NCBI RefSeq assembly: GCF_013911755.1
Contig: NZ_JACESP010000009.1
Span: 1 to 64,000, forward strand
DNA from: Sphingosinicella sp.
GTDB lineage: Bacteria; Pseudomonadota; Alphaproteobacteria; Sphingomonadales; Sphingomonadaceae
Direction: 5' to 3'
Length of the DNA stretch: 64,000 bases
Shown here: positions 48,624 to 64,000 of the stretch, piece after piece
Numbering within the stretch: position 1 is the stretch's first letter
How the letters are laid out: each line of letters begins with the position of its first letter
Translations under genes and position numbers: made by a program
The notes under the pieces: model-generated
Told to the model about the DNA's origin: nothing
Databases searched by the model: none
Seen by the model: only the letters and a program-made list of their open reading frames with translations

Positions 48624-49298
48624 TCAATCCGTCAGCAACAGATCTTCATAGAAGGCGCTGAACGGCCGATCCGGATGACGGATCTGGATTTCGAGAACCC
48701 AGAGCCCGGGCGAGGGCGCGAACGGCGCTTCGGCAAGTGATCCCTTGTGCAGCACGGCGTGCGGAAAGTCCGCGAGCCGGTGCCCCGACATGTCGAGATT
48801 GAGTTCCCAGCCCATCGCCCGCGCCTCGGCGGCGGCGAAATCGTAAAGGTCCATGCCCGAAAGCCCGTCGGTGAGCCACTTCGCACGGGCCCGGCCGAAG
48901 AGGTCACGCACGTCGCGCTGCGCGCCCAGCATTTCCGGATCATTGCCGACAACGAACGTATCACCGCCATCGCCTTCCCACTTCTGCCAGACGGGGCCGA
49001 TGTCGATGAAGAAGATGTCATTATCCCGCAGCGCCACGCCAGGCTCGGACGGCTGGCCGAAATTCTTGAGCGTGTTGGCCCCGAAGCGGACGTGGAGCCC
49101 ATGCCATCCGCGCAGCATTTCCGCCGCGCGGAGCTGATCCTTCGCCATCGCGACGGCGTCTTCCTCGAGCATTCCGGGATGGATGGCTGCCGCGATATCA
49201 TTGATGACCTTCCGGGTGCGTTCGCGCACATGCAGGAACATGGCCCTGTCGAAGTTGGCACCGACCGCTTCTGCCTTCATCTTTTCATCTACACGCAC
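48624..49298 (-). CDS. M24 family metallopeptidase (Xaa-Pro dipeptidase-like)
   Basis: A 224-residue creatinase/methionine aminopeptidase-fold protein, only the catalytic domain. Metal ligands are in order: Asp in FFIDIGPVW, Asp in GDGGDTFVVG, His in SGHRLADFPH, Glu in VLEIQIRHP and Glu in FYEDLLL. There is no creatinase N-terminal domain and no signal, so it is cytoplasmic. It likely removes an N-terminal residue from short or Pro-containing peptides. GTG 49298 is preferred (AAAGGG upstream), with ATG 49280 as the alternative. The gene is divergent from the NylB-like hydrolase, sharing a promoter region that carries the GGTGC-N7-GCACC site. Confidence 0.8.
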   Translation of the reverse strand: MRVDEKMKAEAVGANFDRAMFLHVRERTRKVINDIAAAIHPGMLEEDAVAMAKDQLRAAEMLRGWHGLHVRFGANTLKNFGQPSEPGVALRDNDIFFIDIGPVWQKWEGDGGDTFVVGNDPEMLGAQRDVRDLFGRARAKWLTDGLSGMDLYDFAAAEARAMGWELNLDMSGHRLADFPHAVLHKGSLAEAPFAPSPGLWVLEIQIRHPDRPFSAFYEDLLLTD

Positions 49299-49391: not shown

Positions 49392-49442
49392 GGTGCCGTT
49401 GACGCACCGGCGCGTGGAGCGCGCTGGTGATTGGCGCACACC
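49392..49442. promoter_or_regulatory. LysR-type operator(s) GGTGC-N7-GCACC in a divergent promoter
   Basis: GGTGC-CGTTGAC-GCACC (49392-49408) is a perfect 5-bp inverted repeat obeying T-N11-A. A looser copy, GGTGA-TTGGCGC-ACACC (49426-49442), follows 34 bp on. They lie 94 and 108 bp upstream of the M24 and serine hydrolase starts. The same palindrome recurs at 53094, 60702 and (one mismatch) 63420. Confidence 0.6.
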
Positions 49443-49515
49443 GGCCATTGCTCCCTTCGCACCTCAGTGATGCGCCCGCATCCTGCATAACCGCTCGAAC
49501 GACGCGGGAGGAACG

Positions 49516-50712
49516 ATGCCGCCGACAAGGGAGCCGGAATTGCAGCACGCCGAAAACAGGGACATGCCCCACGCTGTTAATGCTCCGCCCGCTGCACTGA
49601 TGGTTGATGTCTACGCGGGGCAGTTGATGCCCGACGAGCAGGTGCGGATTTTCGGGCAGACCGAGCGTGCCTTCGCCACGCGTACGGTCCGCAGCGGTGC
49701 GCCTGTGCGTGCCCTCGGCGCCGCTGCGGCGGCAGGACTTCCCGATTTTCCCATTCGCGCCAATGGCACGACCTACGACCTCTACGACTACATGTCGCGC
49801 AACCGTGTCGCGGGGCTGCTCGTCATGCAGGACGATGCGCTCGTCCACGAGCAATATGAGCTCGGCATCACCGCCGCGACGCGCTGGCTTTCGATGTCGA
49901 TGGCGAAATCGGTCAGCACCACGCTTGTCGGCGCGGCGATCCGGGACGGTCACATCGCTTCGGTCGAGGATCCGCTGACCCGCTACCTGCCAGAGCTTTC
50001 CGGCAGCGGCTACGACGGCGTTTCCATCCGCGAACTGATGCTGATGACCTCGGGCGTCCGCTGGGACGACACGCATACAGACCCGGCTTCGGAGCGGCGG
50101 CACATGCTGGACCTGCAGATCGGGCAGCAGCCGGGCGCGATCATGCGCTACATGGCGAGCCTGCCGCGCGCGCACGCGCCGGGCTCGCTCTGGAACTACA
50201 GCACCGGCGAAACGCACGTCGTCGGCGCGCTGGTGCGCGCTGCGACGGGCAAGTGGCTTGCAGACTATCTTTCGGAACGAATCTGGTCGCGCATCGGCAC
50301 CGAAGCCGATGCCGAATGGTGGCTGGAAGCGCCGGGCGGCCTCGAGGTCGCGGGCAGCGGTCTTTGCGCGACGCTTCGCGACTATGCGCGTTTCGGCCGG
50401 TTCATCCTTGAAGGCGGAGTCATAGATGGCGATCCGGTCCTCCCCGAAGGCTGGACGGTGGAAGCCACCCGCCCGCGCGAGGTCGGCGGCCAGCGGCTCG
50501 ACTACGGATACATGTGGTGGCCGGTTCCGGCACGCGACGGCACGTTTGCCGATGGTGCCTTTTCAGCACGCGGCATCTTTGGCCAATATATCTATCTGAA
50601 CCCGGCGCGCCGCATCCAGATCGTGGTCCTGAGCGCGCGGTCGAAACCGAAAGGGGCCGAAGCCATCCTCGACAATGATTTCTTCAATTCGGTTGTCGAG
50701 GCTATTGGTTGA
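49516..50712 (+). CDS. NylB-like serine hydrolase (6-aminohexanoate-dimer hydrolase family), cytoplasmic
   Basis: A 398-residue beta-lactamase-fold hydrolase with no signal peptide. S-M-A-K (Ser128-Lys131, in RWLSMSMAKSVSTTLVG) provides nucleophile and base. Tyr228 in LWNYSTGETHVVG is the likely class C-like Tyr. The overall lay-out resembles NylB and related esterases, and it is longest where those enzymes have their acyl pocket. NylB enzymes cut amides of omega-amino acids. Cytoplasmic location and the POT transporter 28 bp downstream suggest it processes imported oligopeptides. A GGGAGG site precedes ATG 49516. Exact substrate unknown. Confidence 0.8.
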   Translation: MPPTREPELQHAENRDMPHAVNAPPAALMVDVYAGQLMPDEQVRIFGQTERAFATRTVRSGAPVRALGAAAAAGLPDFPIRANGTTYDLYDYMSRNRVAGLLVMQDDALVHEQYELGITAATRWLSMSMAKSVSTTLVGAAIRDGHIASVEDPLTRYLPELSGSGYDGVSIRELMLMTSGVRWDDTHTDPASERRHMLDLQIGQQPGAIMRYMASLPRAHAPGSLWNYSTGETHVVGALVRAATGKWLADYLSERIWSRIGTEADAEWWLEAPGGLEVAGSGLCATLRDYARFGRFILEGGVIDGDPVLPEGWTVEATRPREVGGQRLDYGYMWWPVPARDGTFADGAFSARGIFGQYIYLNPARRIQIVVLSARSKPKGAEAILDNDFFNSVVEAIG

Positions 50713-50740
50713 TGATGATCGGCGGAGGCAAGACCACACG

Positions 50741-52111
50741 ATGACCACCGCCGTCGACGCACCCTGCCTGGCTTCCGAGCAACCCCGCGAAATCTGGGGC
50801 CAGCCGCGCGGACTTGCCTACATCGCCTTCACCGAAGCGTGGGAGCGCTTCTCCTTCTACGGAATGCAGGCGCTGCTCGTGCTCTACATGGCAGGCCACT
50901 TGCTGCACCCCGGCAATATCGAGGCCGTGTGGGGCTTCGCCGGCTTCCGCAACGCGATCGAAGCCATCACCGGACCGCTCTCGGTACAGGCGCTCGCCTC
51001 GCAGATCTTTGGCCTGTACGTCGGCCTCATCTATTTCACGCCGGTGCTCGGTGGCCTCCTCGGAGACCGCGTGACGGGCCGCAAGCGCGCTGTGCTCGCG
51101 GGCGCGGGTCTTATGGCGATCGGCCACTTCCTCATGGCCTTCGAGGCTGCATTCCTTCCCGCACTCGGTTCGCTGATCCTCGGCGCAGGCCTGCTCAAGG
51201 GCAACCTCGCCGCGCAGGTCGGCGATCTCTACGCAAAGAACGACAGCCGCCGCGACGGCGCCTTCACGATCTATTGCACCGCGATCAACGTCGGCGCGAC
51301 GATCGCGCCGCTCATCTGCGGCACGCTCGGCGAGCTTTTCGGCTGGCATTACGGCTTTGGCGCGGCCGGTATCGGAATGCTGGTCGGCATCGTCATCTAC
51401 CTCGCGGGCTCTCGCTATCTCCCGCCCGAGAACGCCGCCATCGAACGCGGTGACAAGCCGAAGCTCGAACCCGGCGACGGCCGCGTCATCATCGCGCTCC
51501 TCGTCGTGCTTTCGATCACCGCGCTTTACTGGACCGCGCAGGCGCAGGTGTGGAACACCTATCCGCTGTGGCTGCGCGATCACGTCGGCCGCGACATCCT
51601 GGGCTGGACCGTGCCCGTCACCTGGTTCCAGTCGCTCGATTCGCTTGCCGTTCTGCTGCTCGCGCCGGTGATGGTCGTCGCGTGGCGGAGACAGGCGAAG
51701 CGCGGCACGGAGCCTGCCGAGCTATCGAAAATCGCCATCGGCTGCTGCGCGTTCGGCATCGCCTGCCTGCTGCTCAGCCTCGGCGAATTCGCCGCCGGCA
51801 GCGGCAAGGTCTCCCTGTTCTGGCCGGTGATCTTCCACTTCCTGTGCGCCGTCGGCTACCTCTACATCGCCCCCATCGCGCTTGCGCTCGTGTCGCGCGA
51901 TGCGCCCGCCGCGGTGAACGCGATGATGGTCGGCGCCTATTATCTCGGCATTTTTATCGGGGGCATCGTCAGCGGCTGGCTCGGCCGTTTCTACGAGCCG
52001 GTCGGCCCGCTGGGCTTCTGGATGATCCATGCCGCCGTCGTGGCAAGCGGCGCGCTGTTCGTTCTGCTGCTGCGGACATGGCTGGTCCGCGCGCTCCGTT
52101 CGCGAGCGTAA
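50741..52111 (+). CDS. POT/PTR family proton-dependent oligopeptide transporter
   Basis: A 456-residue inner-membrane MFS protein with about 12 helices. The POT signature E-x-x-E-R-F-x-F-Y is present as TEAWERFSFYGMQALLVLYM, with the second motif LGGLLGDRVTGRKRAVLAGAGLMAIGH and the intact GLLKGNLAAQVGDLY segment. It imports di- or tripeptides with protons. It sits between a cytoplasmic hydrolase and a beta-helix gene on one transcript. ATG 50741 starts 28 bp after the hydrolase stop, with GGAGG about 12 bases before it. A similar transporter (MlrD) accompanies microcystin degradation in related bacteria, but the rest of that cluster is not here. Confidence 0.9.
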   Translation: MTTAVDAPCLASEQPREIWGQPRGLAYIAFTEAWERFSFYGMQALLVLYMAGHLLHPGNIEAVWGFAGFRNAIEAITGPLSVQALASQIFGLYVGLIYFTPVLGGLLGDRVTGRKRAVLAGAGLMAIGHFLMAFEAAFLPALGSLILGAGLLKGNLAAQVGDLYAKNDSRRDGAFTIYCTAINVGATIAPLICGTLGELFGWHYGFGAAGIGMLVGIVIYLAGSRYLPPENAAIERGDKPKLEPGDGRVIIALLVVLSITALYWTAQAQVWNTYPLWLRDHVGRDILGWTVPVTWFQSLDSLAVLLLAPVMVVAWRRQAKRGTEPAELSKIAIGCCAFGIACLLLSLGEFAAGSGKVSLFWPVIFHFLCAVGYLYIAPIALALVSRDAPAAVNAMMVGAYYLGIFIGGIVSGWLGRFYEPVGPLGFWMIHAAVVASGALFVLLLRTWLVRALRSRA

Positions 52112-52130
52112 GGACCGGGAGGGATTGCGA

Positions 52131-53078
52131 ATGAAAATCATGCTGGCCGCCATCGGCCTGTTTGCCGGCACGGCCTGCCCCGCGCTCGGCGCAACGCTCG
52201 TCGCCTGTCCGGCAGCTGCGAAGGGCTGCACCTTCGCGGGCGACGGCGCGATACAGGCCGCGATCGACAGGGCCGTCGACGGCGACACCGTCCTCGTGCG
52301 CGCGGGCGTCTACACGCCGCGCGCCTATCGGGATCTGCCGTACAAGGAAATCATCGTTCGCGCGTTCATCGCCGTCGATGGCAAACGCCTCACAATCGCA
52401 GGCGAGAAAGGCGCGATCCTCGACGGCAGCGCGGGCCTGCCGACGACGGCCATCGGCCTCAGAAACGCCGACGTGACGATCAGCGGCCTCGATATCACCG
52501 GCTTCCGCTTCGATATCGAGGAAGATGACATCTATGAAGGCCACGGCATCTTCGCGGTGGACAGCCGCGCGCGCATCTCGGGCGTCACCATCCGCCGCTA
52601 CCAGAAAATGGGCCTCACCGGGCGCGGCGCCACGATCCTCGACGTGCGGGATCTTCAGGTGCTCGACGGCCATATCGCGACATGGCTCTACGAGGGCGCA
52701 TACTTGCGGCTCGACGGAGCCGTGTTCCGCAACAACGATTCCTCGGCGGTCGCCGCCTACAACGACAGCACCGCCCATCTCACGCGCATCGCGGTCGACC
52801 AAAGCGCCGACGACGGCCTCTACGCCGAAGACGACGCTGCGATCTCTGTTTCGGACTCGCTCATCCTGGGGAGCAAGCCCATCGCGCTCAACGCAACGGG
52901 AAAAAGCCGCATCGTCGGCCGCAACCTCGCGCTCCACGGCAACGCCGCCGACACGAGCGCGACAGGTGTGATGCTCGAAGGCGTCATCGCGGGCGATCCG
53001 CGCGTTGATGCCAACTACCGCCCGCTTCCAGGCTCGCCCATCGCGGGCAAGGGCATCGGCCCGGCCGCATTCCGCTGA
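52131..53078 (+). CDS. Secreted right-handed beta-helix repeat protein
   Basis: A 315-residue exported protein. After a signal (MKIMLAAIGLFAGTACPALGA) it has a pattern of short repeated strands with Ile/Val/Asp, such as IQAAIDRAVDGDTVLVRAGVY, VTISGLDITGF, ISGVTIRRY, LTRIAVDQSADDGLYAEDDAAISVSDSLI. This is the parallel beta-helix pattern of polysaccharide lyases and adhesins. No catalytic signature is clear, so it may bind or cleave sugar polymers, or act as a surface scaffold. It follows the POT gene by 19 bp and is probably in the same transcript. Start ATG 52131 has GGGAGGG upstream. Confidence 0.7.
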   Translation: MKIMLAAIGLFAGTACPALGATLVACPAAAKGCTFAGDGAIQAAIDRAVDGDTVLVRAGVYTPRAYRDLPYKEIIVRAFIAVDGKRLTIAGEKGAILDGSAGLPTTAIGLRNADVTISGLDITGFRFDIEEDDIYEGHGIFAVDSRARISGVTIRRYQKMGLTGRGATILDVRDLQVLDGHIATWLYEGAYLRLDGAVFRNNDSSAVAAYNDSTAHLTRIAVDQSADDGLYAEDDAAISVSDSLILGSKPIALNATGKSRIVGRNLALHGNAADTSATGVMLEGVIAGDPRVDANYRPLPGSPIAGKGIGPAAFR

Positions 53079-53093
53079 ACCTCGCGCCGCGTT

Positions 53094-53110
53094 GGTGCAG
53101 CACATGCACC
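53094..53110. promoter_or_regulatory. LysR-type operator GGTGC-N7-GCACC upstream of the aminotransferase operon
   Basis: GGTGC-AGCACAT-GCACC, within a slightly longer perfect palindrome (TGGTGCA-5-TGCACCA, 53093-53111), lies 107 bp upstream of the aminotransferase start and obeys T-N11-A. Confidence 0.6.
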
Positions 53111-53216
53111 ACCCCTCGCCCGTTTGTCGCCTTGGCCCTTCCGGCGGCCGACTGAATGATCGCGCGCATGGGTTCCCGCCGCAAACGCGGGCCGAAACCG
53201 TGAGGAATTTGAGTTC

Positions 53217-54590
53217 ATGCTTCGCAACTTCGCCGATACCGCCGCGCTCCAGTCCGTCGATGCCGCGCACCACGTCCATTCGTTCGCGGATCCGAAGGCG
53301 CTCGCGGCAAAGGGCACGCGCATCATCACGCAGGGCAAGGGCTGCTACGTGTGGGACAATGAAGGCAACCGCCTGCTCGACGGCATGGCGGGCCTCTGGT
53401 GCGTCGCAGTCGGCTACGGGCGCCCCGAGCTTTCGGACATCGCCGCGCGGCAGATGAACGAGCTCGCCTACTACAACAACCACTTCGGCACCGCGACGCC
53501 GCAGATGATCGAACTCGCCGAAAAGATCGCGAAGCTGACGCCAGAGGGGCTCGATCACATCCTGTTCGCGAATTCCGGCTCGGAAGCGAACGACACCATC
53601 GTCCGCCTCGTCCGCCGCTACTGGATGCTGCAGGGCAAGCCGACGAAGCAGACCTTCATCGGCCGCGACCTCGGCTATCACGGCAGCACGCTTTGCGCCG
53701 TCGGCCTCGGCGGCATGTCGCACATGCACGGTATGGCGCCCCAGATGCTGCCCGGCTTCGCGCACATCATGCACCCGCACCACTATCTGCTCGGCGACGG
53801 CCTGACGCGCGACGAGTTCGGCCTGAAGGCCGCGCGAGCGCTGGAGGAAAAGATCCTCGAACTCGGGCCGGAGAACGTCGCCGCGTTCATCGGTGAGCCG
53901 CTGCAGGGCGCGGGCGGCGTTATCGATCCGCCCTCCACTTACTGGCCGGAAATCCAGCGCATCTGCCGCCAATACGACATCCTGCTCGTCGCCGACGAAG
54001 TGATCTGCGGGTTCGGCCGCACCGGCGAATGGTTCGGATCGCAATATTACGACATCAAGCCCGACCTGATGCCGATGGCGAAGGGCCTGTCTTCCGGCTA
54101 CCTGCCGATCGCCGCCGTCGCCGTGGGCACCAGGGTGTTCGAGGTGTTGAACGAGGGCGGCCTCCTCGCGCACGGTTTCACCTATTCGGGCCATCCGGTC
54201 GCCTGCGCGGTCGCGAGCGCCAATATCGACATCATCGCGAACGAAGGCCTCGTCGATCGCGTCCGCGAGGATGTCGGCCCCTATTTCCATCAGTCGCTGC
54301 GCCAGCTCGCCGATGCGCACCCGCTTGTCGGCGAAGTGCGCGGCGTCGGCCTTGTCGCCGCGCTGCAACTCGTGCGTGCCAAGGCGCCAAAGACGGTCTT
54401 CACCGCCGAGGAGCAGGCCTCCATCCATTGCCGCGAGATACTGTGGGAGAACGGCCTCATCGCCCGCGCGGTCGGGCAGGCGATGGTGCTGAGCCCGCCG
54501 CTCGTCATCACACGCGCGGAGATCGACGAGATGGTCGGGAAGCTGAAAACCGGTCTCGATGGCACCGCTCAAGCCTTCGGTGTGCTGTGA
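53217..54590 (+). CDS. Class III omega-aminotransferase (SpuC/beta-alanine-pyruvate type)
   Basis: A 457-residue PLP enzyme that moves a terminal amino group to pyruvate or another keto acid. Features are YVWDNEGNRLLDGMAGLWCVAVGYG, ANSGSEANDT (phosphate binding), YHGST, EPLQGAGGV, the Asp of LLVADEVICGFGRTG and the PLP Lys in MAKGLSSGYLPIAAV. The pattern is closest to putrescine- or beta-alanine-pyruvate aminotransferases. It heads an operon with a semialdehyde dehydrogenase and a GabT-type enzyme, so its product is probably an omega-aminoaldehyde or semialdehyde. ATG 53217 is used; a GAGGAAT purine patch lies upstream. Confidence 0.85.
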   Translation: MLRNFADTAALQSVDAAHHVHSFADPKALAAKGTRIITQGKGCYVWDNEGNRLLDGMAGLWCVAVGYGRPELSDIAARQMNELAYYNNHFGTATPQMIELAEKIAKLTPEGLDHILFANSGSEANDTIVRLVRRYWMLQGKPTKQTFIGRDLGYHGSTLCAVGLGGMSHMHGMAPQMLPGFAHIMHPHHYLLGDGLTRDEFGLKAARALEEKILELGPENVAAFIGEPLQGAGGVIDPPSTYWPEIQRICRQYDILLVADEVICGFGRTGEWFGSQYYDIKPDLMPMAKGLSSGYLPIAAVAVGTRVFEVLNEGGLLAHGFTYSGHPVACAVASANIDIIANEGLVDRVREDVGPYFHQSLRQLADAHPLVGEVRGVGLVAALQLVRAKAPKTVFTAEEQASIHCREILWENGLIARAVGQAMVLSPPLVITRAEIDEMVGKLKTGLDGTAQAFGVL

Positions 54591-56053
54591 TGGCGCTGCC
54601 CATCTCGACCGCAGCGGCGGAACTCATCGCTCGTGGATTGAAGCTGGGTGAGCCGGCAGCGCGAACCTTCGCGGTCTTCAATCCGGCAAATGGCGCGCAC
54701 ATTGCCGATGTCGCGGACGGCACCGCCGACGACATGCGCGCTGCAATCGCGAAAGCGAAATCGGCCTTCCCGGCGTGGAGCGCACTCACCGCCAAGGAAC
54801 GCGGCGCCATCCTCCGCCGCTGGCACGGGCTCGTCGTTGAGAATGCCGACGTGCTCGCCGAAATCCTGACGCTGGAACAAGGCAAGCCGCTTGCCGAGGC
54901 GCGCGGCGAAATCCTGTTCGGCGCGAATTTCATCGAATGGTTCGCCGAGGAGGCGAAGCGCGTTTACGGCGACATCGTTCCCGCCCACGCACCCGACAAG
55001 CGCTGCCTCGTTCTGAAGCAGCCCGTCGGCGTCGTCGGCGCGATCACGCCGTGGAATTTCCCGAGCGGCATGATCACGCGCAAGGTCGCCCCTGCGCTCG
55101 CGGCGGGCTGCACGATTGTCGTGAAGCCGGCTGAAGATACGCCGCTCTCGGCGCTCGCCCTCGCCGTGCTGGCAGCGGACGCCGGCCTTCCCGAAGACGT
55201 GATGACGGTGGTGACGGCGGCGCAGGCCGCCGAAGTGGCCGGCGTGCTGACGGCAAGCCCAGACGTCCGCAAACTCTCCTTCACCGGCTCCACGCGCGTC
55301 GGCAAGCTGCTGATGCGCCAATGCGCGGATACGGTGAAGAAGCTCAGCCTCGAACTCGGCGGCAACGCGCCGTTCATCGTCTTCGAAGACGCCGATCTCG
55401 ATGCCGCGGTTGCGGGCGCAATGGCCACGAAATTCCGCAATGCCGGGCAGACCTGCGTGTCGGCAAACCGCATCTATGTGCAGTCCGGCGTCATGACGGC
55501 CTTCGCGCACAAATACGCGGAGGCGGTGCGTATGCTCAATGTCGGCGATGGCTTCGAAAGCGGTACGCAGATCGGCCCACTCATCAATGTCGCGGCAGTG
55601 GAGAAGGTCGACAGCCTCGTGCAGGATGCACTCGGCAAGGGCGCTGTCGCCGTGCTCGGCGGCGGGCGGCACGAACGCGGCGGCAACTTCTACGCGCCGA
55701 CAGTCCTCACCGGCGTCCTCCCCGAAATGGACATCGCGCACGCCGAGATTTTCGGCCCCGTCGCGCCGCTCACACCCTTTGAAACCGAAGCCGAAGTCAT
55801 CGCCCGCGCAAACGACACGCCCTATGGCCTTGCCGCCTATTTCTGGTCGCGCGACATCGGGCGCGTGTTCCGTGTGGCCGAAGCGCTGGAATATGGCATG
55901 GTCGGCGCCAACGAGGTGCTGACGTCGAACGAGGGCGCGCCGTTCGGCGGGATCAAGGAGTCGGGCATGGGGCGCGAAGGGTCGCGCTACGGCATCGAGG
56001 ATTTCGTTGAAATCAAGTATCTCGCGCTCGGCGGAATCGCCGCGGCGGCATGA
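54590..56053 (+). CDS. gabD: Succinate/glutarate-semialdehyde dehydrogenase
   Basis: A 487-residue NAD(P)-dependent aldehyde dehydrogenase. Key stretches are PWNFPSGMITRKVAPALAAGCTIVVKPAEDTPLSALAL (cofactor), SFTGSTRVGK, ELGGNAPFIVFEDADLD (Glu general base), GQTCVSANR (catalytic Cys) and EIFGPVAPL. The SMGREGSRYG-like end (SGMGREGSRYGIEDFVEIKYL) marks the GabD/DavD subgroup, which acts on succinate or glutarate semialdehyde. Its ATG overlaps the previous stop by one base (TGATG), so it is translationally coupled to the aminotransferase. Together they turn an omega-amino acid or diamine into a dicarboxylic acid. Confidence 0.9.
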   Translation: MALPISTAAAELIARGLKLGEPAARTFAVFNPANGAHIADVADGTADDMRAAIAKAKSAFPAWSALTAKERGAILRRWHGLVVENADVLAEILTLEQGKPLAEARGEILFGANFIEWFAEEAKRVYGDIVPAHAPDKRCLVLKQPVGVVGAITPWNFPSGMITRKVAPALAAGCTIVVKPAEDTPLSALALAVLAADAGLPEDVMTVVTAAQAAEVAGVLTASPDVRKLSFTGSTRVGKLLMRQCADTVKKLSLELGGNAPFIVFEDADLDAAVAGAMATKFRNAGQTCVSANRIYVQSGVMTAFAHKYAEAVRMLNVGDGFESGTQIGPLINVAAVEKVDSLVQDALGKGAVAVLGGGRHERGGNFYAPTVLTGVLPEMDIAHAEIFGPVAPLTPFETEAEVIARANDTPYGLAAYFWSRDIGRVFRVAEALEYGMVGANEVLTSNEGAPFGGIKESGMGREGSRYGIEDFVEIKYLALGGIAAAA

Positions 56054-56066
56054 ACAGGAGAGCGAT

Positions 56067-57380
56067 ATGAAGACCAGCAATGAAGTGCTCGAAGCGCGCG
56101 TTGAAGCCGTGGCGCGCGGCGTCTCCCACGTCACCAGCATCGTTTGCGACCGCGCGCGGAATGCAGAGATCTGGGATCTTGAAGGACGCCGCTATATCGA
56201 TTTCGCCGCCGGCATCGCCGTCTGCAACACAGGCCACAATCACCCGGATGTGAAGGCCGCCGTGATCGCCCAGCTCGACCGCTTCACGCACACGAGCTTC
56301 AACGTCGCCATGTACCCGCAATATGTCGAACTCGCGCAGCGCCTGAACGCGCTCGTACCCGGCAGCAGTCCGCGCAAGACGATCCTCGTTTCGACGGGCG
56401 CGGAGGCGGTGGAGAACGCCGTGAAGGTCGCGCGCGTCGCAACGGGCCGCAGCGCGGTGATCGCCTTTGCGGCAGGCTTCCACGGCCGGACGATGATGAC
56501 GATGGCGCTCACCGGCAAGGTGACGCCCTACAAGGCCGGTTTCGGCCCCTTCCCCGCCGAGGTTTTCCACGCGCGTTTCCCGGATGAAGCCGCGGGCATC
56601 ACCGTTGAAGACAGCATCGCCAGCATCCACGACATCTTCCACGAAGACGTCGATCCCGCGCGCGTGGCGGCGATCATCATCGAACCCGTGCAGGGCGAAG
56701 GCGGCTTCAACATCGCGTCCGTCGAACTTCTGCAGGCGCTGCGCCAGCTTTGCGACGATCATGGCATCCTGCTCATCATCGATGAAATCCAGACCGGTTT
56801 CGGACGGACAGGCGCGTATTTCGCCCACGCCCGCGCGGGCATCGAGGCCGACATCGTCACGATGGCAAAGGGGATCGCAGGCGGCTATCCGCTCGCCGCG
56901 GTCACCGGCCGGGCTGATCTGATGGACGCCTCTCCGATAGGCGGTCTCGGCGGCACCTACGCAGGTTCACCGGTCGCCTGCGCGGCGGCACTCGCCGTGC
57001 TCGACGTCATCGAACGCGAAGGCCTTTGCGCACGCGCCGAGGCGATGGGCCAAACGATCGAGGCGCGGCTCACCGATCTTCGCGCCCGCGCGCGCAAGGG
57101 CGTGATCGGCGACATTCGCCGCCTGGGCGCGATGGTCGCGATGGAGCTTTGTTCCGCCGAAGCCCCGCACGCGGCCGACGCGGCGCTCACCCGCGCGCTG
57201 ATCGCCGAGGCGCAGAAGCAGGGCCTTATCCTGATTTCCTGCGGCACCAAGGGCAACGTCATCCGCTTCCTGATGCCGCTGACGATTCCCGATGCGCAGC
57301 TTGAAGAGGGACTGACGATCCTGGAACGATCGCTCGCAGCGCTCGATGTCTTCGTCCCTCGGCTTGCCGCCGCAAGCTGA
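56067..57380 (+). CDS. gabT: 4-aminobutyrate/5-aminovalerate aminotransferase
   Basis: A 437-residue class III PLP aminotransferase of the GabT/DavT type, moving the amino group of GABA or 5-aminovalerate to 2-oxoglutarate. Motifs: DLEGRRYIDFAAGIAVCNTGHNHP, VSTGAEAVENAVKVAR, GFHGRT, EPVQGEGGF, the Asp in LIIDEIQTGFGRTG and the PLP Lys in MAKGIAGGYPLAAVTG. AGGAG lies 7-8 bases before ATG 56067. It is third in the operon with the SpuC-type enzyme and the semialdehyde dehydrogenase. Its 3' end is convergent with the LysR gene. GABA versus aminovalerate cannot be told from sequence. Confidence 0.88.
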   Translation: MKTSNEVLEARVEAVARGVSHVTSIVCDRARNAEIWDLEGRRYIDFAAGIAVCNTGHNHPDVKAAVIAQLDRFTHTSFNVAMYPQYVELAQRLNALVPGSSPRKTILVSTGAEAVENAVKVARVATGRSAVIAFAAGFHGRTMMTMALTGKVTPYKAGFGPFPAEVFHARFPDEAAGITVEDSIASIHDIFHEDVDPARVAAIIIEPVQGEGGFNIASVELLQALRQLCDDHGILLIIDEIQTGFGRTGAYFAHARAGIEADIVTMAKGIAGGYPLAAVTGRADLMDASPIGGLGGTYAGSPVACAAALAVLDVIEREGLCARAEAMGQTIEARLTDLRARARKGVIGDIRRLGAMVAMELCSAEAPHAADAALTRALIAEAQKQGLILISCGTKGNVIRFLMPLTIPDAQLEEGLTILERSLAALDVFVPRLAAAS

Positions 57381-57395
57381 GGGCGCTGAGGGCTC

Positions 57396-58364
57396 TCAGG
57401 CCTTGCCGGAGAGAGATTTCGCGATCGCGTCTTTCAACCAGCGGCGATAGCGGCGGATGAGCGGTGCGTCCCAGCGGTCGCCGCGCGCGATAAACAGGTA
57501 AATGCCGTCGCTGTAGGGCTGGAAGCTTTCGAGCCCCTTCCCGATTTCGATGAGGCGGCCGCTCGCCAGATCGTCGGAGGCGACGAGATGGTTCGCAAGC
57601 GCCACGCCGCGCCCGTGCAGCGCGGCGTCGAGCGTCAGGTGGCCCTGCCACAGCTTGGGCCCCGTCAGGTCGATATCGTCGTAGATGCCGTGCGCGGAAA
57701 GCCAGTTCACCCAGGAATCGAAATTGTCTTCGTGAAGCAGCCGGTGGCGCAGCAAATCTCCCGGCTTCTCGATCCTGGCGGCGGCGGCAAGATAGTCTGG
57801 GCTCGCCACCGCGACGATGGGCACGCGCGCAAGTTCGATGTGGCGCAGCTTGGGCCCCAGCAGGAACGGCGAGCCGTATGTCGGCACGAAGCGGATGTCG
57901 ATGTCTGTTTCGTGCGATCCGAAATCCGGGCTGCGATCCGTGGGGCGTATTTCGATCTGCACCGACGGATCGAGCCGCTCGAACGCGCCGACACGGCGGG
58001 ACATCCAGTGCAGCGCGAATCCCGGCATACACCAGATATGCAGGCGGTGTTCGCTTCCCCGTCGGATCAGCTCCATCGTGGCATCGGCCAGCAGATCGAG
58101 CGCCATCGCGACCTGCTCGTGGTAGCGAATGCCGGCTTCGGTAAGCACCACCCCGGCGGACGTGCGCTCGATGAGCGCCGTACCGGTCCAGGTTTCGAGG
58201 GTTCGCAGATGGCGGCTGATCACCGCGTGATCGCGGCCGAGGCTCTGCGCGGCCCGCCGCACGCCTTTCAGGCGTGCAACCGCATCGAACGCGCGCAGAG
58301 CTTCAAACGGCGGCAGCGACTTGCGCGACGGCGGATTGACGCCCTTGACCTTACGCTCCAGCAC
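57396..58364 (-). CDS. LysR family transcriptional regulator (GcvA-like)
   Basis: A 322-residue LysR regulator. The N-terminal HTH runs LPPFEALRAFDAVARLKGVRRAAQSLGRDHAVISRHLRTLETWTG (about residues 15-60), and the C-terminal domain is a ligand-binding substrate domain (DIDIRFVPTYGSPFLLGPKL, VPIVAVASPDYLA). I start at GTG 58364 because GGAGG precedes it at the right distance; no ATG in frame is better. It lies inside the island between the aminotransferase operon and a TonB receptor. The palindromes at four promoters around it satisfy the LysR T-N11-A rule, so it is the probable regulator of them all. Confidence 0.87.
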   Translation of the reverse strand: MLERKVKGVNPPSRKSLPPFEALRAFDAVARLKGVRRAAQSLGRDHAVISRHLRTLETWTGTALIERTSAGVVLTEAGIRYHEQVAMALDLLADATMELIRRGSEHRLHIWCMPGFALHWMSRRVGAFERLDPSVQIEIRPTDRSPDFGSHETDIDIRFVPTYGSPFLLGPKLRHIELARVPIVAVASPDYLAAAARIEKPGDLLRHRLLHEDNFDSWVNWLSAHGIYDDIDLTGPKLWQGHLTLDAALHGRGVALANHLVASDDLASGRLIEIGKGLESFQPYSDGIYLFIARGDRWDAPLIRRYRRWLKDAIAKSLSGKA

Positions 58365-58451
58365 ATAACCCTCCCGGCCGGACGGAGCTTCCCATCCCGG
58401 CCGGTTGGGGTCAAGAACCGGTGAACCAAGCAACGCGAATACCTTGGATAA

Positions 58452-58477
58452 GGGCGGCACCCTGGAAGACGCCGCCC
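58452..58477 (-). terminator. Hairpin after the TonB receptor at 58485-60614
   Basis: GGGCGGC and GCCGCCC form a 7-bp stem with a 12-base loop just after the receptor stop, followed on the minus strand by TTAT only. It is a weak terminator candidate ahead of the LysR gene. Confidence 0.4.
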
Positions 58478-58484
58478 ATTTCGC

Positions 58485-60614
58485 TCAGAAGCTGACCGAA
58501 CCCTTGATGCCGATCACGCGCGGCCGCGTGCGGTTCGAGTTCGCCCAACCCTGATAGGGGTCGATCGCCTTGTTCACGTTGGCGATGTTCTGGCCGTATA
58601 GCTCGACACCGACCGCGCCGAATGTCGCCCCGATCCGCGCATTCAGGAGTCCGATGTCGTCCGATGCCTGCGGCAACACCGACGGCAGGAAGCTCGACCG
58701 GTCGATATATGTCACCTTGTCGCGGTAGCTGTAGTCCACGCGCACGAAGCCGGGCACGTTCGCCGCCCAGTCGAATTCGTAATTCGTACCGAGCGTGATG
58801 CTGAACTTCGGCGTGTAGTCGGTGCGATCGCCCGGAATATTGACCGTATCGGCGGCATCCGTTGCAACGATCTCGCTGTCGAGATATGCGGCGCTTGCCG
58901 TAAACGTGAGGCCGGTTGTCGGACGCACAGCCGCGCCCACTTCGATGCCCTTCACCTCGACCTTGCCGATATTGCTCGACTCCGAGAGGAAAGCGCCGTT
59001 CACGTTCACAAGGCGACGGCGCACCATATCCTTGTACTGCGTAAAGAACGCGGCGATGTCGTAGCTGAACGTGCCATCCGACGTCATGCCCTTCGTGCCG
59101 ATCTCGTACGTGAAGATCTTCTCGGGGTTGTAAGCTGCGAACGGCGCTGAGTTGAAACCGCCCGAGCGGAAACCCTTGGCAACGTTGGCGTAAATGCTGC
59201 CGTTATCCGAATACTGGTACGAGATGTAGAGGCGCGGGTCGACGGAATCGAACTTCGCCGACTGCTCGACACCGGTTCCCGGCGCGTACTCGATCAGGCT
59301 CGTCTGCTTGTCCTTGAAATAACGGATGCCGGCGCCGACGGTCAGGCGATCCATCAGCTTGTAGGACGCATCGGCGAACAGCGAGTAGGACTCTGAACTG
59401 GATTTCGAGAGATAATATAGATCGCCGATGAGAAAGCCCCCGCCCTCCGAAATGTCGGCGCCAGGCGCATAGAGATATTCGTACAGGGCAAGCAGAGACC
59501 TGTCGCCTTCGCTGTAGAAGGCGCCCAGCGTCCATTCGAACGGTCCACCTGAAGACGTGAGACGGAGTTCCTGGCTGAACTGATCGGCGTCCACCCAGCG
59601 GTCGTCATTGCCCTCGACGATGTTGTACGAATAATTGCCCGGCCGCGGAATGTAGGTGAACGGATACTGGTGCTTGTGCTCGATATAGGTCGTGGCGCTC
59701 ACGAGTTCCGCGAAGCCCATGTCGTAGCGGAGTTCGAGATTGTAGAGATCGAAGTCGAACTCCTTGGGGATCATCACCTTGCTGCGATCCGGGCCGATGT
59801 CGACCGTGCGGTCCGGCTCTTCGAAGCCCGTGCCGAGCTTGGTGTCGGCGCGGTGGATCTGCACCATGCCTTCGGCGCGGAAGTTGTCACCTGGCGTCCA
59901 CAGCAGCTTGGCGCGCACATTGATAAGCTCGGTGCCGTTACCGTCCTTGATCCCGGCCTCCGGCTGGTCGATCCAGCCACCGCCCTGCTCATAGGCGCCC
60001 GCTATACGCAGCGCGAGCTGATCCTGCACCAGGGGGATATTTAGCACGCCGCTCAGCTTCGTACCAACCTCGCCGCCGGCTACATTGTAAACTTCGCCCT
60101 CGACCTTGCCTTCGAACTGGCTGGTGTTCGGGTCGTTGGTCACGAAGCGGATCGTACCGCCCGCCGACCCCTGACCATAGAGCGTGCCCTGCGGACCCTT
60201 CAGCACCTCGACGCGCGCAAAGTCGAGCGGGACCGGGCTCAGCTGGTCGTAACCGGAAAGCGAAAGCGGCGCTTCGTCGAGATACATGCTAACGAGCGCG
60301 CCGGAGCCTGACTGGTTGGCGAGGCCGCGCAGGAAGATCGTGTAGCTGCCGGGGCCGTCCTCACGCATCGTGAGGCCGGGAACCGCGAACGACAGGTCCT
60401 GTACATTGTCGATGCCGCGCTGTTCGAGATCCTCGCCGCCGAGCACCGAAATCGCCATCGGAACGTCGATGAGACGCTGCTCGCGCTTCTGGGCCGTGAC
60501 AACGATCACTTGACCGCTGTCGACCGCGTCAGCCGACTCCTGCGCGTAAGCCGTTGTCGCAGCCAGCATCGCGAATGCAGAAATACCTGCGACGAATGTT
60601 GTTCTGGTAACCAT
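58485..60614 (-). CDS. TonB-dependent receptor
   Basis: A 709-residue outer-membrane receptor. The signal peptide ends TTAYAQ; the plug begins VIVVTAQKREQRLIDVPMAISVLGGEDLEQRGIDNVQDLSFAVPG and has the late VEVLKGPQGTLYGQGSAGGTIRFVTNDP motif. The barrel ends IGIKGSVSF with a terminal Phe. This subgroup is smaller than the 914- and 917-residue receptors and is widespread in sphingomonads for organic substrates. GAGGGGG precedes the ATG at 60614. A GGTGC-N7-GCACC site lies 88 bp upstream, tying it to the aminotransferase and peptidase genes. It probably brings the island's substrate into the periplasm. Confidence 0.9.
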   Translation of the reverse strand: MVTRTTFVAGISAFAMLAATTAYAQESADAVDSGQVIVVTAQKREQRLIDVPMAISVLGGEDLEQRGIDNVQDLSFAVPGLTMREDGPGSYTIFLRGLANQSGSGALVSMYLDEAPLSLSGYDQLSPVPLDFARVEVLKGPQGTLYGQGSAGGTIRFVTNDPNTSQFEGKVEGEVYNVAGGEVGTKLSGVLNIPLVQDQLALRIAGAYEQGGGWIDQPEAGIKDGNGTELINVRAKLLWTPGDNFRAEGMVQIHRADTKLGTGFEEPDRTVDIGPDRSKVMIPKEFDFDLYNLELRYDMGFAELVSATTYIEHKHQYPFTYIPRPGNYSYNIVEGNDDRWVDADQFSQELRLTSSGGPFEWTLGAFYSEGDRSLLALYEYLYAPGADISEGGGFLIGDLYYLSKSSSESYSLFADASYKLMDRLTVGAGIRYFKDKQTSLIEYAPGTGVEQSAKFDSVDPRLYISYQYSDNGSIYANVAKGFRSGGFNSAPFAAYNPEKIFTYEIGTKGMTSDGTFSYDIAAFFTQYKDMVRRRLVNVNGAFLSESSNIGKVEVKGIEVGAAVRPTTGLTFTASAAYLDSEIVATDAADTVNIPGDRTDYTPKFSITLGTNYEFDWAANVPGFVRVDYSYRDKVTYIDRSSFLPSVLPQASDDIGLLNARIGATFGAVGVELYGQNIANVNKAIDPYQGWANSNRTRPRVIGIKGSVSF

Positions 60615-60701
60615 TGCTACCCCCTCTTTTGCAGCTTCGTTATTGACTAAAAAGGCTATGGAAGCGCCGCTTTCACGGCAGATGCGAAAATCGCGACATG
60701 C

Positions 60702-60718
60702 GGTGCAATGAAGGCACC
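60702..60718. promoter_or_regulatory. LysR-type operator GGTGC-N7-GCACC upstream of the TonB receptor
   Basis: GGTGC-AATGAAG-GCACC lies 88 bp before the receptor start at 60614, in the gap behind the gcdH stop, and satisfies T-N11-A. Confidence 0.6.
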
Positions 60719-60740
60719 ACCATGGATGGCACCTGAGCCA

Positions 60741-61913
60741 TCAGGCGAAAGCCGCGATACCGGTCTGCGCACGCCCCAGGATTAGTGTGTGAACGTCGTG
60801 CGTGCCTTCATATGTATTGACCGCCTCAAGGTTGCAGACGTGACGCATGACGTGAAACGCACCCGAAATGCCGTTGCCGCCATGCACGTCACGCGCCGCA
60901 CGCGCGACATCGAGCGCTTTGCCGCAGCTGTTGCGCTTAATAATTGAGATCGCTTCGGGAGGACACGTGCCCGCATCGAGCAGCCGCCCGACCTTGAGGC
61001 AGGACTGCAGCCCGATTGCGATTTCCACCTGCATTTCCACGAGCTTGCGCTGCACGAGCTGGTTCGCCGCGAGCGGCCGGCCGAACTGGTGGCGTTCAAG
61101 CGCGTATGTCCGGGCTGCCTGCCAGCACGCCGCAGCGGCACCCAGCGCCCCCCAGCCGATGCCGTAGCGCGCCTTGTTAAGGCATCCGAACGGACCCTTC
61201 AGGCCTTGCACGTTCGGCAGCAGGTTCTCTTCGGTCACGAAGACGCCGTCCATCACGATCTCACCGGTAATGGAAGCACGTAATGCAAGTTTGTCGTTGA
61301 TTTCGGGTGTCGACAGTCCCTCGGCACCGCGTTCGAGAACAAAACCGCGGATCACGCCGTCAAGCTTTGCCCAGACCACCATCACATCCGCGATCGGCGC
61401 ATTCGTTATCCACATCTTGGTGCCCGTGAGGCGATACCCGCCTGGAACACGGTCTGCGCGCGTCGCAAGGCTTCCTGGATCAGACCCGGAACCAGGCTCG
61501 GTGAGGCCGAAACAACCGACCAGTTCGCCCGAGATCAGCCCCGGAAGCCAGCGCGCGCGCTGCGCGTCCGAGCCGTAGGCGTGAATGGGATGAATGACGA
61601 GGCTCGACTGCACGCTCATCGCCGAGCGATAGCCGGAGTCCACGGCCTCCACCTCGCGCGCGATCAGCCCATAAGCGACATAACTGGCCCCGACGCCGCC
61701 GTCCGCCTCCGGGATCGTGGCGCCAAGCAGGCCGAGCGCGCCCATCTCGCGCAGGATCGCGCGGTCGAACACCCCCTCGCGATTGGCATCCACGATGCGC
61801 GGCAGAAGCTCGCCTTGGGCATAGGCGCGCGCTGTATCGCGGATCAGCCGCTCCTCGTCCGTCAGTTCGGAATCGAGGGCGAGCGGGTCCATCCAGTCGA
61901 ACTGGGTCAGCAT
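60741..61913 (-). CDS. gcdH: Glutaryl-CoA dehydrogenase
   Basis: A 390-residue FAD acyl-CoA dehydrogenase that oxidises and decarboxylates glutaryl-CoA to crotonyl-CoA. The FAD site [21 protein letters not shown] is present. The catalytic Glu is in [20 protein letters not shown], a strongly GCDH-specific string. The Arg of [20 protein letters not shown] is also typical. It ends lysine/5-aminovalerate breakdown. The gene lies 26 bp downstream of the P1 hydrolase and is probably cotranscribed with it, which links a secreted peptidase with a C5 dicarboxylate route. A C5 substrate pathway is thus favoured over a C4 one. Confidence 0.9.
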
Positions 61914-61939
61914 ACCGGAAATGTCTCCTTAGGTTGGGT

Positions 61940-63340
61940 TCAGCGGCGTTTCAGGCCGCGCTGCTGCCAGCGTCCGGGGTTGATGATGAGACCGCCGCGA
62001 CCGTCGAAGCGAAGCAGGGTTGGGTATCGGCCCGGCACCACATAGTCTCCGCCTTCCGTCGGGATAATTTCAACTGCGGTCTCCTTGGGGATGCCGAAGA
62101 CCTTGCGTTCGCCGACGGCCTGACCGAGCAACCGTCCGCCTTCCACCTTGAGATCCAGCGCGGCGAGTGGGCTGAACGTGTAACGGCCCGCGATCTTGCC
62201 GAGATCGGCGGCACTCACCACGCGGCGCGGCGGAGCCTCCAGCGCGGCCTGCGGCTGCGGCGGCACGGCGCTGAGGATTGCATCCCACATCACCTCGGAC
62301 GTGATCGTGCCGATGTCGAGCAGACTGATACGCTTGTCGTCGGCGGGGGTGTATTCGGCCGTGGAGACGGCGTAGAGCACGTCACCGTCGAACTCGGTCT
62401 GGAACGGCTGAATGCCGCGCGCCATTGAGGTATGCACCTGAATGGCCAGTCGTTTCAGCTCCCATGGCTCCATCTTCTGGTTCACGACGATCAGGCTGAT
62501 CGTCGTGTTCTTTTTCTCGGCGGAAGGGGCCACACCCGTCCATCCCGGCTTCCCGCTGCCGGGTGTTCCGGCCAGAATGTCATGAGTCTTGAACCCGGCC
62601 GGCCATGTCTTGTCCGGGTAGCAGGCTGCTGTACGGCCCTCCCGGTCGGTCACCACACCAAGAGCGTTCACAACCGTAAACGCCGCGATCTTCAGATCGC
62701 CGACCTGCCGAAACGCACCGCCCTGCCCCGAATGAGCGTTGCATCCGAAAATGCTGCCGCTAATCGCAGAACGGCCCGCGCCGTAAGCTCCGCGCGGGAA
62801 CACGCCCGGCACCGCCGCCTTCAGCGCTGCTTGCGCGAGGCGCTTGTCCGGGTAGATTTCATTGAGGCGGCGTCCACCGAAATCGTAGATGATCGATCCC
62901 ACCGTGAGGCCGACATTGTCCCAATTGCCGCCGCGATAGCCCTCGTCCTTGAGCGCCGTATTCACCGCCGTCACGGCCTCGAGGCCGTACCAGGAGCCAC
63001 CCGATAGAACAACCGAGTCCAGTTCGGGGAACGGATAGCCGATCCCCAGATACTCCGTATTCACGGTGCCCGGCCCACCGCCACGGACATCGACGGCCGC
63101 CAGCATCTTTCGATTGAAACGAAAGACCGTAAGCCCCGTCGGTCCGGCCTCATACTGGCCCGTTCCGATCTTGAAGGCAGGCCAATCGAAGCGTAGCGCG
63201 TCAGGTGTATCGTAGCCGTCGTTAAGCGTGAGCTTCAAAGCGTCCTGTTCCGCGGACTGGGCGAAAAGTGGCGAAATCGGCAGCATAGCCACTACCGCCA
63301 TCGCCGCGCGTAGCATTCCGTATGCCCGTGCTCGCTTCAT
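61940..63340 (-). CDS. P1 family (DmpA/BapA/NylC-like) N-terminal-nucleophile hydrolase with extra C-terminal domain
   Basis: A 466-residue exported self-processing hydrolase. After the signal (MAVVAMLPISPLFAQ) the P1 core shows VDVRGGGPGTVNTEYL, VVLSGGSWYGLEAVTAV and GAYGAGRSAISGSIFGCNAH. The probable self-cleavage point is Asn278-Thr279 in AEKKNTTISLIVVNQ, so the nucleophile would be Thr as in NylC, where DmpA and BapA use Ser. After the core is a further ~90-residue beta-rich domain (residues ~376-466, VSAADLGKIAGRYTFSP) like those at the end of secreted serine hydrolases. Start ATG 63340 has GGAG six bases upstream. It shares an operon with gcdH and a divergent promoter with a PepSY gene. 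Confidence 0.85.
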   Translation of the reverse strand: MKRARAYGMLRAAMAVVAMLPISPLFAQSAEQDALKLTLNDGYDTPDALRFDWPAFKIGTGQYEAGPTGLTVFRFNRKMLAAVDVRGGGPGTVNTEYLGIGYPFPELDSVVLSGGSWYGLEAVTAVNTALKDEGYRGGNWDNVGLTVGSIIYDFGGRRLNEIYPDKRLAQAALKAAVPGVFPRGAYGAGRSAISGSIFGCNAHSGQGGAFRQVGDLKIAAFTVVNALGVVTDREGRTAACYPDKTWPAGFKTHDILAGTPGSGKPGWTGVAPSAEKKNTTISLIVVNQKMEPWELKRLAIQVHTSMARGIQPFQTEFDGDVLYAVSTAEYTPADDKRISLLDIGTITSEVMWDAILSAVPPQPQAALEAPPRRVVSAADLGKIAGRYTFSPLAALDLKVEGGRLLGQAVGERKVFGIPKETAVEIIPTEGGDYVVPGRYPTLLRFDGRGGLIINPGRWQQRGLKRR

Positions 63341-63419
63341 ATGAATCTCCATCCCGGCACCTTGATCATCAGAATTACGATCGCGGCTACGAAAACGAGA
63401 TGCAAATGCAAAGGCCGGT

Positions 63420-63436
63420 GTTGCGCCGTACGCACC
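63420..63436. promoter_or_regulatory. Operator-like GTTGC-N7-GCACC in a divergent promoter
   Basis: GTTGC-GCCGTAC-GCACC differs from the palindrome at 49392, 53094 and 60702 by one base in the left arm. T-N11-A is kept. It is 80 bp upstream of the P1 hydrolase and 89 bp upstream of the PepSY gene. Confidence 0.5.
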
Positions 63437-63524: not shown

Positions 63525-64000
63525 TTGGGCATCGCGCGGTCCGGACTTCTCGGGCTTCATCGCTGGCTTAGTCTTTCAGCAATGCTGTTTTGGGTCCTGC
63601 AGGCGGCATCGGGCGTCCTGATTGTGTTCCACTGGGAGCTTGAGGACGCGCTGATCCGCGCACCGCATCACCCCACCGACCCGGCGGCGATCGAGACACG
63701 GCTCCGCGAACTGGCACCGCTTGGTTCCGGCCTCGTCATCGAATCGGTGTGGACAAGCGGCGGCGCTAGCGACCGCTACGATGTCTATGTTGAGACTCCG
63801 GACGGAGAGGCGGAACGCACGGTCCGCATCGACGGCGCAGGCAATGTGCTGCGAACACTGACGCCCATAGAAAGCGGCGTGTTCGATGCGATCATCGGTT
63901 TTCACCACGACCTTTTGGCCGGGGAAACGGGAAGCTGGATCGTCGGCATCAGCGGCCTCCTCCTCGCAAGCAACATCGTGATCGCGATGTTCATGGCGTG
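63525..64000 (+). CDS. PepSY-associated transmembrane protein, 5' part
   Basis: The first 158 codons of an inner-membrane protein of the PepSY-TM family; it runs off the right edge. It starts with TTG at 63525, with AAGGAG about 8 bases before it. After LGLHRWLSLSAMLFWVLQAASGVLIVFHWELEDAL (first helix with the family HRW) comes a periplasmic PepSY-like segment (ESVWTSGGASDRYDVYVETPDGE). A second conserved region, GVFDAIIGFHHDLLAGETGSWIVGISGLLLASNIV, starts the next helix. It is divergent from the P1 hydrolase, over the operator-like site at 63420. A role in substrate or cofactor reduction is possible but not shown. Confidence 0.75.
   Translation, partial: MGIARSGLLGLHRWLSLSAMLFWVLQAASGVLIVFHWELEDALIRAPHHPTDPAAIETRLRELAPLGSGLVIESVWTSGGASDRYDVYVETPDGEAERTVRIDGAGNVLRTLTPIESGVFDAIIGFHHDLLAGETGSWIVGISGLLLASNIVIAMFMA

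Follow-up and report, generated by a model that had tools for sequence, protein, structure and literature searches.

A conserved palindrome as the predicted operator of a LysR-type regulator at putative omega-amide uptake and degradation genes in Sphingosinicella

The island and its palindromes

The stretch analysed here, called the window, comprises the first 64,000 nucleotides of a Sphingosinicella sp. contig (NZ_JACESP010000009.1), and its last part carries a gene island that includes a LysR-type regulator gene (57396-58364). A sequence-only reading had proposed that one 17-bp palindrome, GGTGC-N7-GCACC, marks the promoters of this island and that the LysR protein governs them as one regulon. 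The comparison of related loci reported here lends strong support to one regulon with one operator, and to this LysR protein as the likely regulator. The exact palindrome was confirmed at 49392, 53094 and 60702 and the one-mismatch copy at 63420, with distances to the start codons (about 79-107 bp) that agree with those first given. The predicted operators, none of them assigned to a strand, are:

49392..49408: exact GGTGC-N7-GCACC, between the divergent M24 and S12 genes
49425..49443: degenerate TGGTG-N9-CACCG, second site of the M24/S12 promoter, 34 bp beyond the 49392 site
53094..53110: exact, preceding the aminotransferase operon
60702..60718: exact, preceding the TonB receptor gene
63420..63436: one mismatch, GTTGC-N7-GCACC, between the divergent S58 and PepSY genes

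A further exact copy at 38063, absent from the first reading, lies within a coding-like open reading frame (ORF) and is probably background. Seven places in the window carry one mismatch, 63420 among them. Just beyond the window end, another site (64584-64602) overlaps the final codons of the PepSY ORF and stands 69 bp ahead of a PD40-amidohydrolase ORF. The T-N11-A feature, which had been cited as a mark of LysR binding, is indeed present (T at position 3, A at position 15); however, it adds no evidence of its own, because the palindrome itself contains it.

The genes of the island are:

48624..49298, minus strand: M24-family peptidase (PF00557, 54.9 bits)
49516..50712, plus strand: S12 (beta-lactamase fold) hydrolase, NylB-like (PF00144, 141.6 bits; 8rlj, 331 bits; the NylB-type entry 4gb7, 111 bits)
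50675..52111, plus strand: POT-family oligopeptide symporter, longest ORF (PF00854; TIGR00924 above cut-off)
52029..53078, plus strand: right-handed beta-helix protein, longest ORF (PF13229 below cut-off; conserved part from about 52131)
53217..54590, plus strand: class-III aminotransferase, omega/diamine type (PRK07480 above cut-off; omega-transaminases in the PDB)
54587..56053, plus strand: succinate-semialdehyde-type aldehyde dehydrogenase (TIGR01780 above cut-off)
56007..57380, plus strand: 4-aminobutyrate-type aminotransferase, longest ORF (TIGR00700 above cut-off)
57396..58364, minus strand: LysR-type regulator (PF00126, 60.1 bits, and PF03466, 80.4 bits, both above cut-off)
58485..60614, minus strand: TonB-dependent receptor (PF00593, PF07715)
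60741..61913, minus strand: glutaryl-CoA dehydrogenase (3d6b, 586 bits; NCBIfam NF045552 below cut-off only)
61940..63340, minus strand: S58 hydrolase, NylC-like (NylC in the PDB, 205 bits; N/T cleavage site and DGD kept)
63525..64000, continuing past the window end, plus strand: PepSY-TM protein (PF03929)

Taken together, this gene set reads as one for endo-hydrolysis, uptake, exo-hydrolysis, transamination, oxidation and C5 acyl-CoA oxidation. The compartments given below for the gene products are predictions from N-terminal sequences read by eye.

The regulator combines an N-terminal HTH_1 domain with a C-terminal substrate domain, and its presumed target promoters carry an interrupted dyad with T-N11-A, as is typical of the LysR type. 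It is the one LysR gene on the window contig among the matches listed, and a 95% identical orthologue is present in Sphingosinicella soli DSM 17328. The best NCBIfam model is PRK11139 (GcvA) at 201.6 bits, below the cut-off of 288 and so outside the GcvA subfamily by that measure; the closest solved relative is 8y6u.

The S58 protein had been labelled a P1 peptidase. Its relatives point to a NylC-like enzyme instead of an ordinary DmpA/BapA-type peptidase: the closest solved relatives are NylC, and N278/T279 and the D-G-D motif, which we take to be the catalytic residues of NylC-type hydrolases, are aligned. Among the 17 solved chains matched, the best 11 are NylC, followed by Nyl12 and another polyamide hydrolase; none of the 17 is named BapA, which gives no ground for a BapA/DmpA assignment, and the L-aminopeptidase/D-esterase 9yys scores 60 bits. 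The S12 protein shows the S12 fold and SMAK as its S-x-x-K motif, matches NylB entries at 95-111 bits, and consists of a single domain; inspection by eye revealed no signal peptide. The TonB receptor gave weak matches to siderophore receptors, the best being the pesticin receptor at 102 bits.

Enrichment and placement of the palindrome across loci

We collected 68 loci, each of up to about 21 kb (1.28 Mb in total), around orthologues of the window LysR gene; 11 duplicate loci and two weak ones (L127 and L128) were dropped. A scan of named genomes yielded 56 LysR loci, including some from Bradyrhizobium, Asticcacaulis, Steroidobacter, Peristeroidobacter, Microbulbifer and Kordiimonas. Species may be represented more than once: Peristeroidobacter soli contributes five loci, and near-identical strains are included. 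Dyads were then scanned without bias, using all 1024 five-base arms and 16 spacers (0-15), with expectations derived from arm counts. GGTGC-N7-GCACC ranked first of the 9036 dyads seen, with 83 copies found against 4.5 expected, in 46 of the 68 loci. It kept the first rank when Sphingosinicella was left out (76 against 4.3 expected; 43 of 64 loci), and the second-ranked dyad, TGGTG-N9, is a one-base shift of the same motif. Exact sites occurred in 40 of the 57 loci whose LysR protein is at least 50% identical to that of the window, and in 6 of the 11 below 50%.

The base outside the arms, which was no part of the search pattern, was a pyrimidine on one side and a purine on the other in 160 of 166 flanks. 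The corresponding relaxed form, YGGTG-N9-CACCR (the core form), was present in 61 of the 68 loci, and only 9 of its 170 copies fell within the 799 kb of coding interiors. The predicted operator is wider and looser than the motif first described, namely YGGTG-N9-CACCR, i.e. YGGTG(c)-N7-(g)CACCR. A count of TGGTGC-N7-GCACCR across the family gave matches in 282 of 397 genomes and was too noisy for use.

Other dyads and loci of the sample deserve mention in their own right. GGTGA-N7-TCACC (23 copies, 3.0 expected) and GGTGT-N7-ACACC (13 copies, 1.2 expected) were also enriched across the 68 loci; the fifth arm base therefore varies between loci, perhaps following the LysR clade. The third-ranked dyad, CAGAC-N4-GTCTG (16 found, 0.6 expected), was seen in 16 loci and in gene cluster 4 in particular. 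Peristeroidobacter soli holds five relatives of the window LysR (L082, L084, L094, L105 and L119), which suggests a local expansion of the system.

To place the sites, we grouped conserved genes from the 68 loci into clusters and annotated representatives of clusters 1-17. Of the 83 exact sites, 76 lie at most 500 bp upstream of a conserved gene that points away from them, 6 are inside called ORFs and 1 is elsewhere. The resulting site-gene pairs involve LysR (20), class-III aminotransferase (17), TonB receptor (17), S12 (11), S58 (10), POT (8), an FMN-binding PaiB-like protein (7), aldehyde dehydrogenase (ALDH, 4), PepSY (4) and PD40-amidohydrolase (3), plus smaller clusters. Counts of the core form in the upstream 300 bp, restricted to genes preceded by at least 200 bp of sequence, were likewise high for S12 (35/53), TonB (29/49), S58 (19/30) and PaiB-like genes (17/30), as well as for aminotransferase (28/75) and LysR genes (27/71), against a background of 20/236 genes outside the named clusters. 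Spacings between core sites were mostly 20-49 bp, with a peak at 37-39 bp, in a raw list with no null model.

Within the genus, relatives with the same genes keep sites at the aminotransferase, TonB, M24/S12 and S58/PepSY promoters. The aminotransferase promoter keeps the exact dyad in three genomes around three different centres, and that of the TonB gene keeps it exactly in two (the window genome and G002) and with one mismatch in S. soli. In the M24/S12 promoter, G002 has the 49392 site in exact form and S. soli has lost it, and the second site, 34 bp on at 49425, is retained in the window, S. soli and G002. The S58/PepSY site shows the identical mismatch, GTTGC-N7-GCACC, in all five genomes examined (window, G001, G002, G003 and G005); exact sites stand ahead of the S58 gene in G016, G119 and G135.

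Chance, the regulator and the reach of the regulon

Several observations weigh against a single operator read by this LysR protein. The first reading had named a genome-wide scan as a check, and the raw count was unfavourable: 10 exact places in the whole genome as opposed to 18 for the reversed control, and 23 core places as opposed to 19, hence no raw excess. The dyad expectations across loci ignore kinship, several loci being near-identical or from one genome; moreover, the exact form is missing from 22 of the 68 loci, the core form from 7 and both from 6. Core sites in the upstream 300 bp were infrequent for POT (8/40), ALDH (5/37), acyl-CoA dehydrogenase (ACD, 1/10) and CoA-transferase genes (0/12), some of which lie within operons; CoA-transferase III is present in 12 of the 68 loci. 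Finally, the window LysR gene lacks its own site, and the loci, having been selected by the LysR gene, are on their own unable to tell LysR apart from a different factor acting on these genes.

The genome counts, with the exact form below its reversed control, raised the question of chance matches in GC-rich DNA. The window alone also makes a weak case that leaves room for chance: 11 places have at most one mismatch against 4.60 expected, a number reached in 1 of 100 shuffles, and in the segment 47397-64000 the palindrome ranks second of 448 dyads seen, with an uncorrected p of about 10^-4.2. The scan was nevertheless partly favourable, as 4 of the 10 exact genome places (49392, 53094, 60702 and position 17639 of contig C18) are in promoters before genes of the same system, and the other six, inside coding-like ORFs, are taken as background. 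What refutes chance are the comparative counts and positions, with the dyad at rank 1 also outside the genus. Because of this evidence across LysR-orthologue loci, chance is excluded in practice, and we rejected it as having a negligible probability.

The missing site at the window LysR gene and the choice of loci by LysR would also suit a different transcription factor, encoded elsewhere, for which the LysR gene is merely one target among others. However, arms separated by seven bases with T-N11-A are a LysR layout, and the sites precede the LysR gene itself in 20 of the pairs counted above. The co-occurrence of sites with LysR orthologues in relatives, another check named at the outset, held in 46 (exact) and 61 (core) of the 68 loci. 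In a control, 25 orthologue loci (97 kb) contained 18 exact and 29 core sites, whereas neither form was found in 13 non-orthologous LysR loci (49 kb). LysR is, in addition, the sole transcription factor in the annotated clusters 1-17, and an S12 relative in a genome without the LysR gene (G004) has no site, a single case at 46% identity. On balance, we consider a different factor improbable. In the window, the LysR gene follows the TonB gene downstream and may share its transcript.

The genes also travel together. Among 397 genomes of the family, using E-value limits of 1e-70 for LysR, 1e-40 for S58 and 1e-90 for S12, there were 22 carriers of LysR, 17 of S12 and 16 of S58, with all three in 15. 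LysR was present in 15 of the 16 S58 carriers and 16 of the 17 S12 carriers (hypergeometric 5e-21 and 9e-23, kinship ignored). The S58 carrier without LysR, G003, is a draft assembly of 83% completeness in which the contig stops 1.1 kb after the S58 gene, and the S12 carrier without it is G004. Conversely, 7 of the 22 LysR carriers have no S58 relative and 6 of the 22 no S12 relative at these thresholds. The predicted operator, its targets, its conservation and its link to this LysR clade are shown at the sequence level. We consider it probable that the palindromes are operators of the LysR protein encoded at 57396-58364, and that through them it activates one omega-amide uptake and degradation pathway as a whole.

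The predicted regulon extends beyond the window end and onto another contig. On C18, an operator pair 31 bp apart precedes two genes: a second PD40-amidohydrolase gene at a distance of about 84 bp and, at about 76 bp, a beta-helix gene that is 79% identical to the one in the window; an 86% relative of this amidohydrolase in G002 adjoins the S12 gene and an operator. The surroundings of the pair (L199:8576-14529) comprise beta-helix, PD40-amidohydrolase and Porin_5 genes. Contig C33 carries two core sites near gene starts, one preceding the longest ORF of an S12 paralogue (45% to the window S12) by about 81 bp, the other an FGE-sulfatase-like gene by about 84 bp; the group there (L202:5681-10921), which also includes a DUF418 gene and an alpha/beta hydrolase, is perhaps a further branch of the regulon. 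Several of the remaining core places of the genome are in coding-like ORFs. Downstream of the PD40-amidohydrolase that follows the window (L200:8692-10670, or 68691-70669 in window numbering), we observed a GNAT acetyltransferase and a class-III aminotransferase (~33% to the second one of the window).

Proposed pathway and comparison with known systems

In the model that we infer, which covers LysR binding, the direction of control, the inducer, the compartments and the substrate, LysR would sit about 80-200 bp upstream of the start codons, at some promoters on paired sites. With a pathway intermediate bound, it would most likely activate the uptake and degradation genes jointly. In many relatives, where a site lies in the LysR promoter, the regulator would control its own gene as well. 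LysR regulators classically pair a recognition site with an activation site, and arm-N7-arm boxes with a second site nearby would fit this arrangement. The TonB receptor would carry an amide oligomer across the outer membrane, to be cut in the periplasm by the NylC-like endo-hydrolase together with the PD40-amidohydrolase. POT would import the short pieces and the NylB-like hydrolase liberate the monomers, whose omega-amino end the class-III aminotransferases and the succinate-semialdehyde dehydrogenase (SSADH)-type enzyme would convert to a carboxylate, glutaryl-CoA dehydrogenase taking a C5 product onward.

C4-C5 omega-amide oligomers seem to be what the regulon naturally handles: its GABA transaminase, SSADH and glutaryl-CoA dehydrogenase suggest C4-C5 omega-amino acids. 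The same regulon and operator could instead serve ordinary or beta-linked peptides, as the earlier label 'peptide' implied: the POT, M24 and TonB genes suit peptide uptake, the S58 family includes aminopeptidases, and BapA, a beta-peptidase, is well known from this genus. Yet the window S58 is NylC-like, with 71 bits for PF03576 against 370 and 332 bits for two other S58 genes of the genome, which sit on contigs without a core site, and the downstream enzymes named above indicate omega-amino acids. We regard peptide substrates as the less probable case; a BapA-type beta-peptide island, in particular, was weakened as a candidate by the S58 match to NylC and by the location of the stronger S58 genes elsewhere.

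A bolder reading, which we consider less likely than not, is that the C4-C5 omega-amide regulon might be a pre-industrial nylonase system, common to many Alpha- and Gammaproteobacteria, that imports and degrades a natural C4-C5 polyamide and acts as a reservoir of NylB- and NylC-type enzymes. Speculatively, the polyamides could be polymers of C4-C5 omega-amino acids or diamines, such as GABA or 5-aminovalerate oligomers, or hydroxamate siderophores, e.g. desferrioxamines; nothing related to desferrioxamine as a substrate appeared among the matches listed in a literature search, and the weak siderophore-receptor matches of the TonB protein also speak against it.

To our knowledge, the natural role of NylC- and NylB-like enzymes is not established, and the interest of the system lies in the natural regulatory setting that it would give them. 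It provides an operator and a candidate regulator for widely shared, putatively amide-degrading genes, these enzymes included, and would link them to uptake and downstream genes, so that the inducer, and hence the natural substrate, could be found with a reporter. The operator can also be used as a search key: in this genome it pointed to two neighbouring genes from the same families on a different contig. A literature search for a regulator or cluster of nylonase genes found none describing this one among the titles and abstracts of the matches listed, most subscription journals lying outside it.

As a kind, the system belongs to the LysR regulons; on sequence comparison, the regulon and operator are well supported and the identity of the regulator is likely. 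The LysR regulators BenM and CatM recognize an arm-N7-arm box, ATAC-N7-GTAT. Their arrangement is shared here in the inverted repeat, the 7-bp spacer, T-N11-A and the position of the sites ahead of catabolic promoters that often diverge from the gene for the regulator, whereas the GGTGC arms, the many scattered promoters and the pathway are different. GcvA-type regulators resemble the window LysR through its best model and its best solved relative, but the score is below cut-off and glycine-cleavage genes are absent from the targets found.

The polyamide-4 hydrolases Nyl4Apx and Nyl4Apa are, according to PMC13269358, large secreted multidomain enzymes of the S12 fold that release GABA oligomers, and 8RLJ is listed there among their structural neighbours. 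The window S12 shares this fold and has 8RLJ as its closest solved relative; unlike them, it is single-domain and lacks an evident signal peptide. The nylon-oligomer pathway comprises NylC, NylB, an aminotransferase and an aldehyde dehydrogenase. The same order of enzyme kinds is found here, from endo-hydrolase and exo-hydrolase to omega-aminotransferase and semialdehyde dehydrogenase, with modest similarity of the enzymes (about 205 bits to NylC for S58 and about 111 to NylB for S12); NylA, NylB and NylC are described in PMC11879879. The window system differs from that pathway in being chromosomal, in its TonB and POT uptake and its predicted LysR operator, and in downstream enzymes suited to C4-C5 and not C6 compounds.

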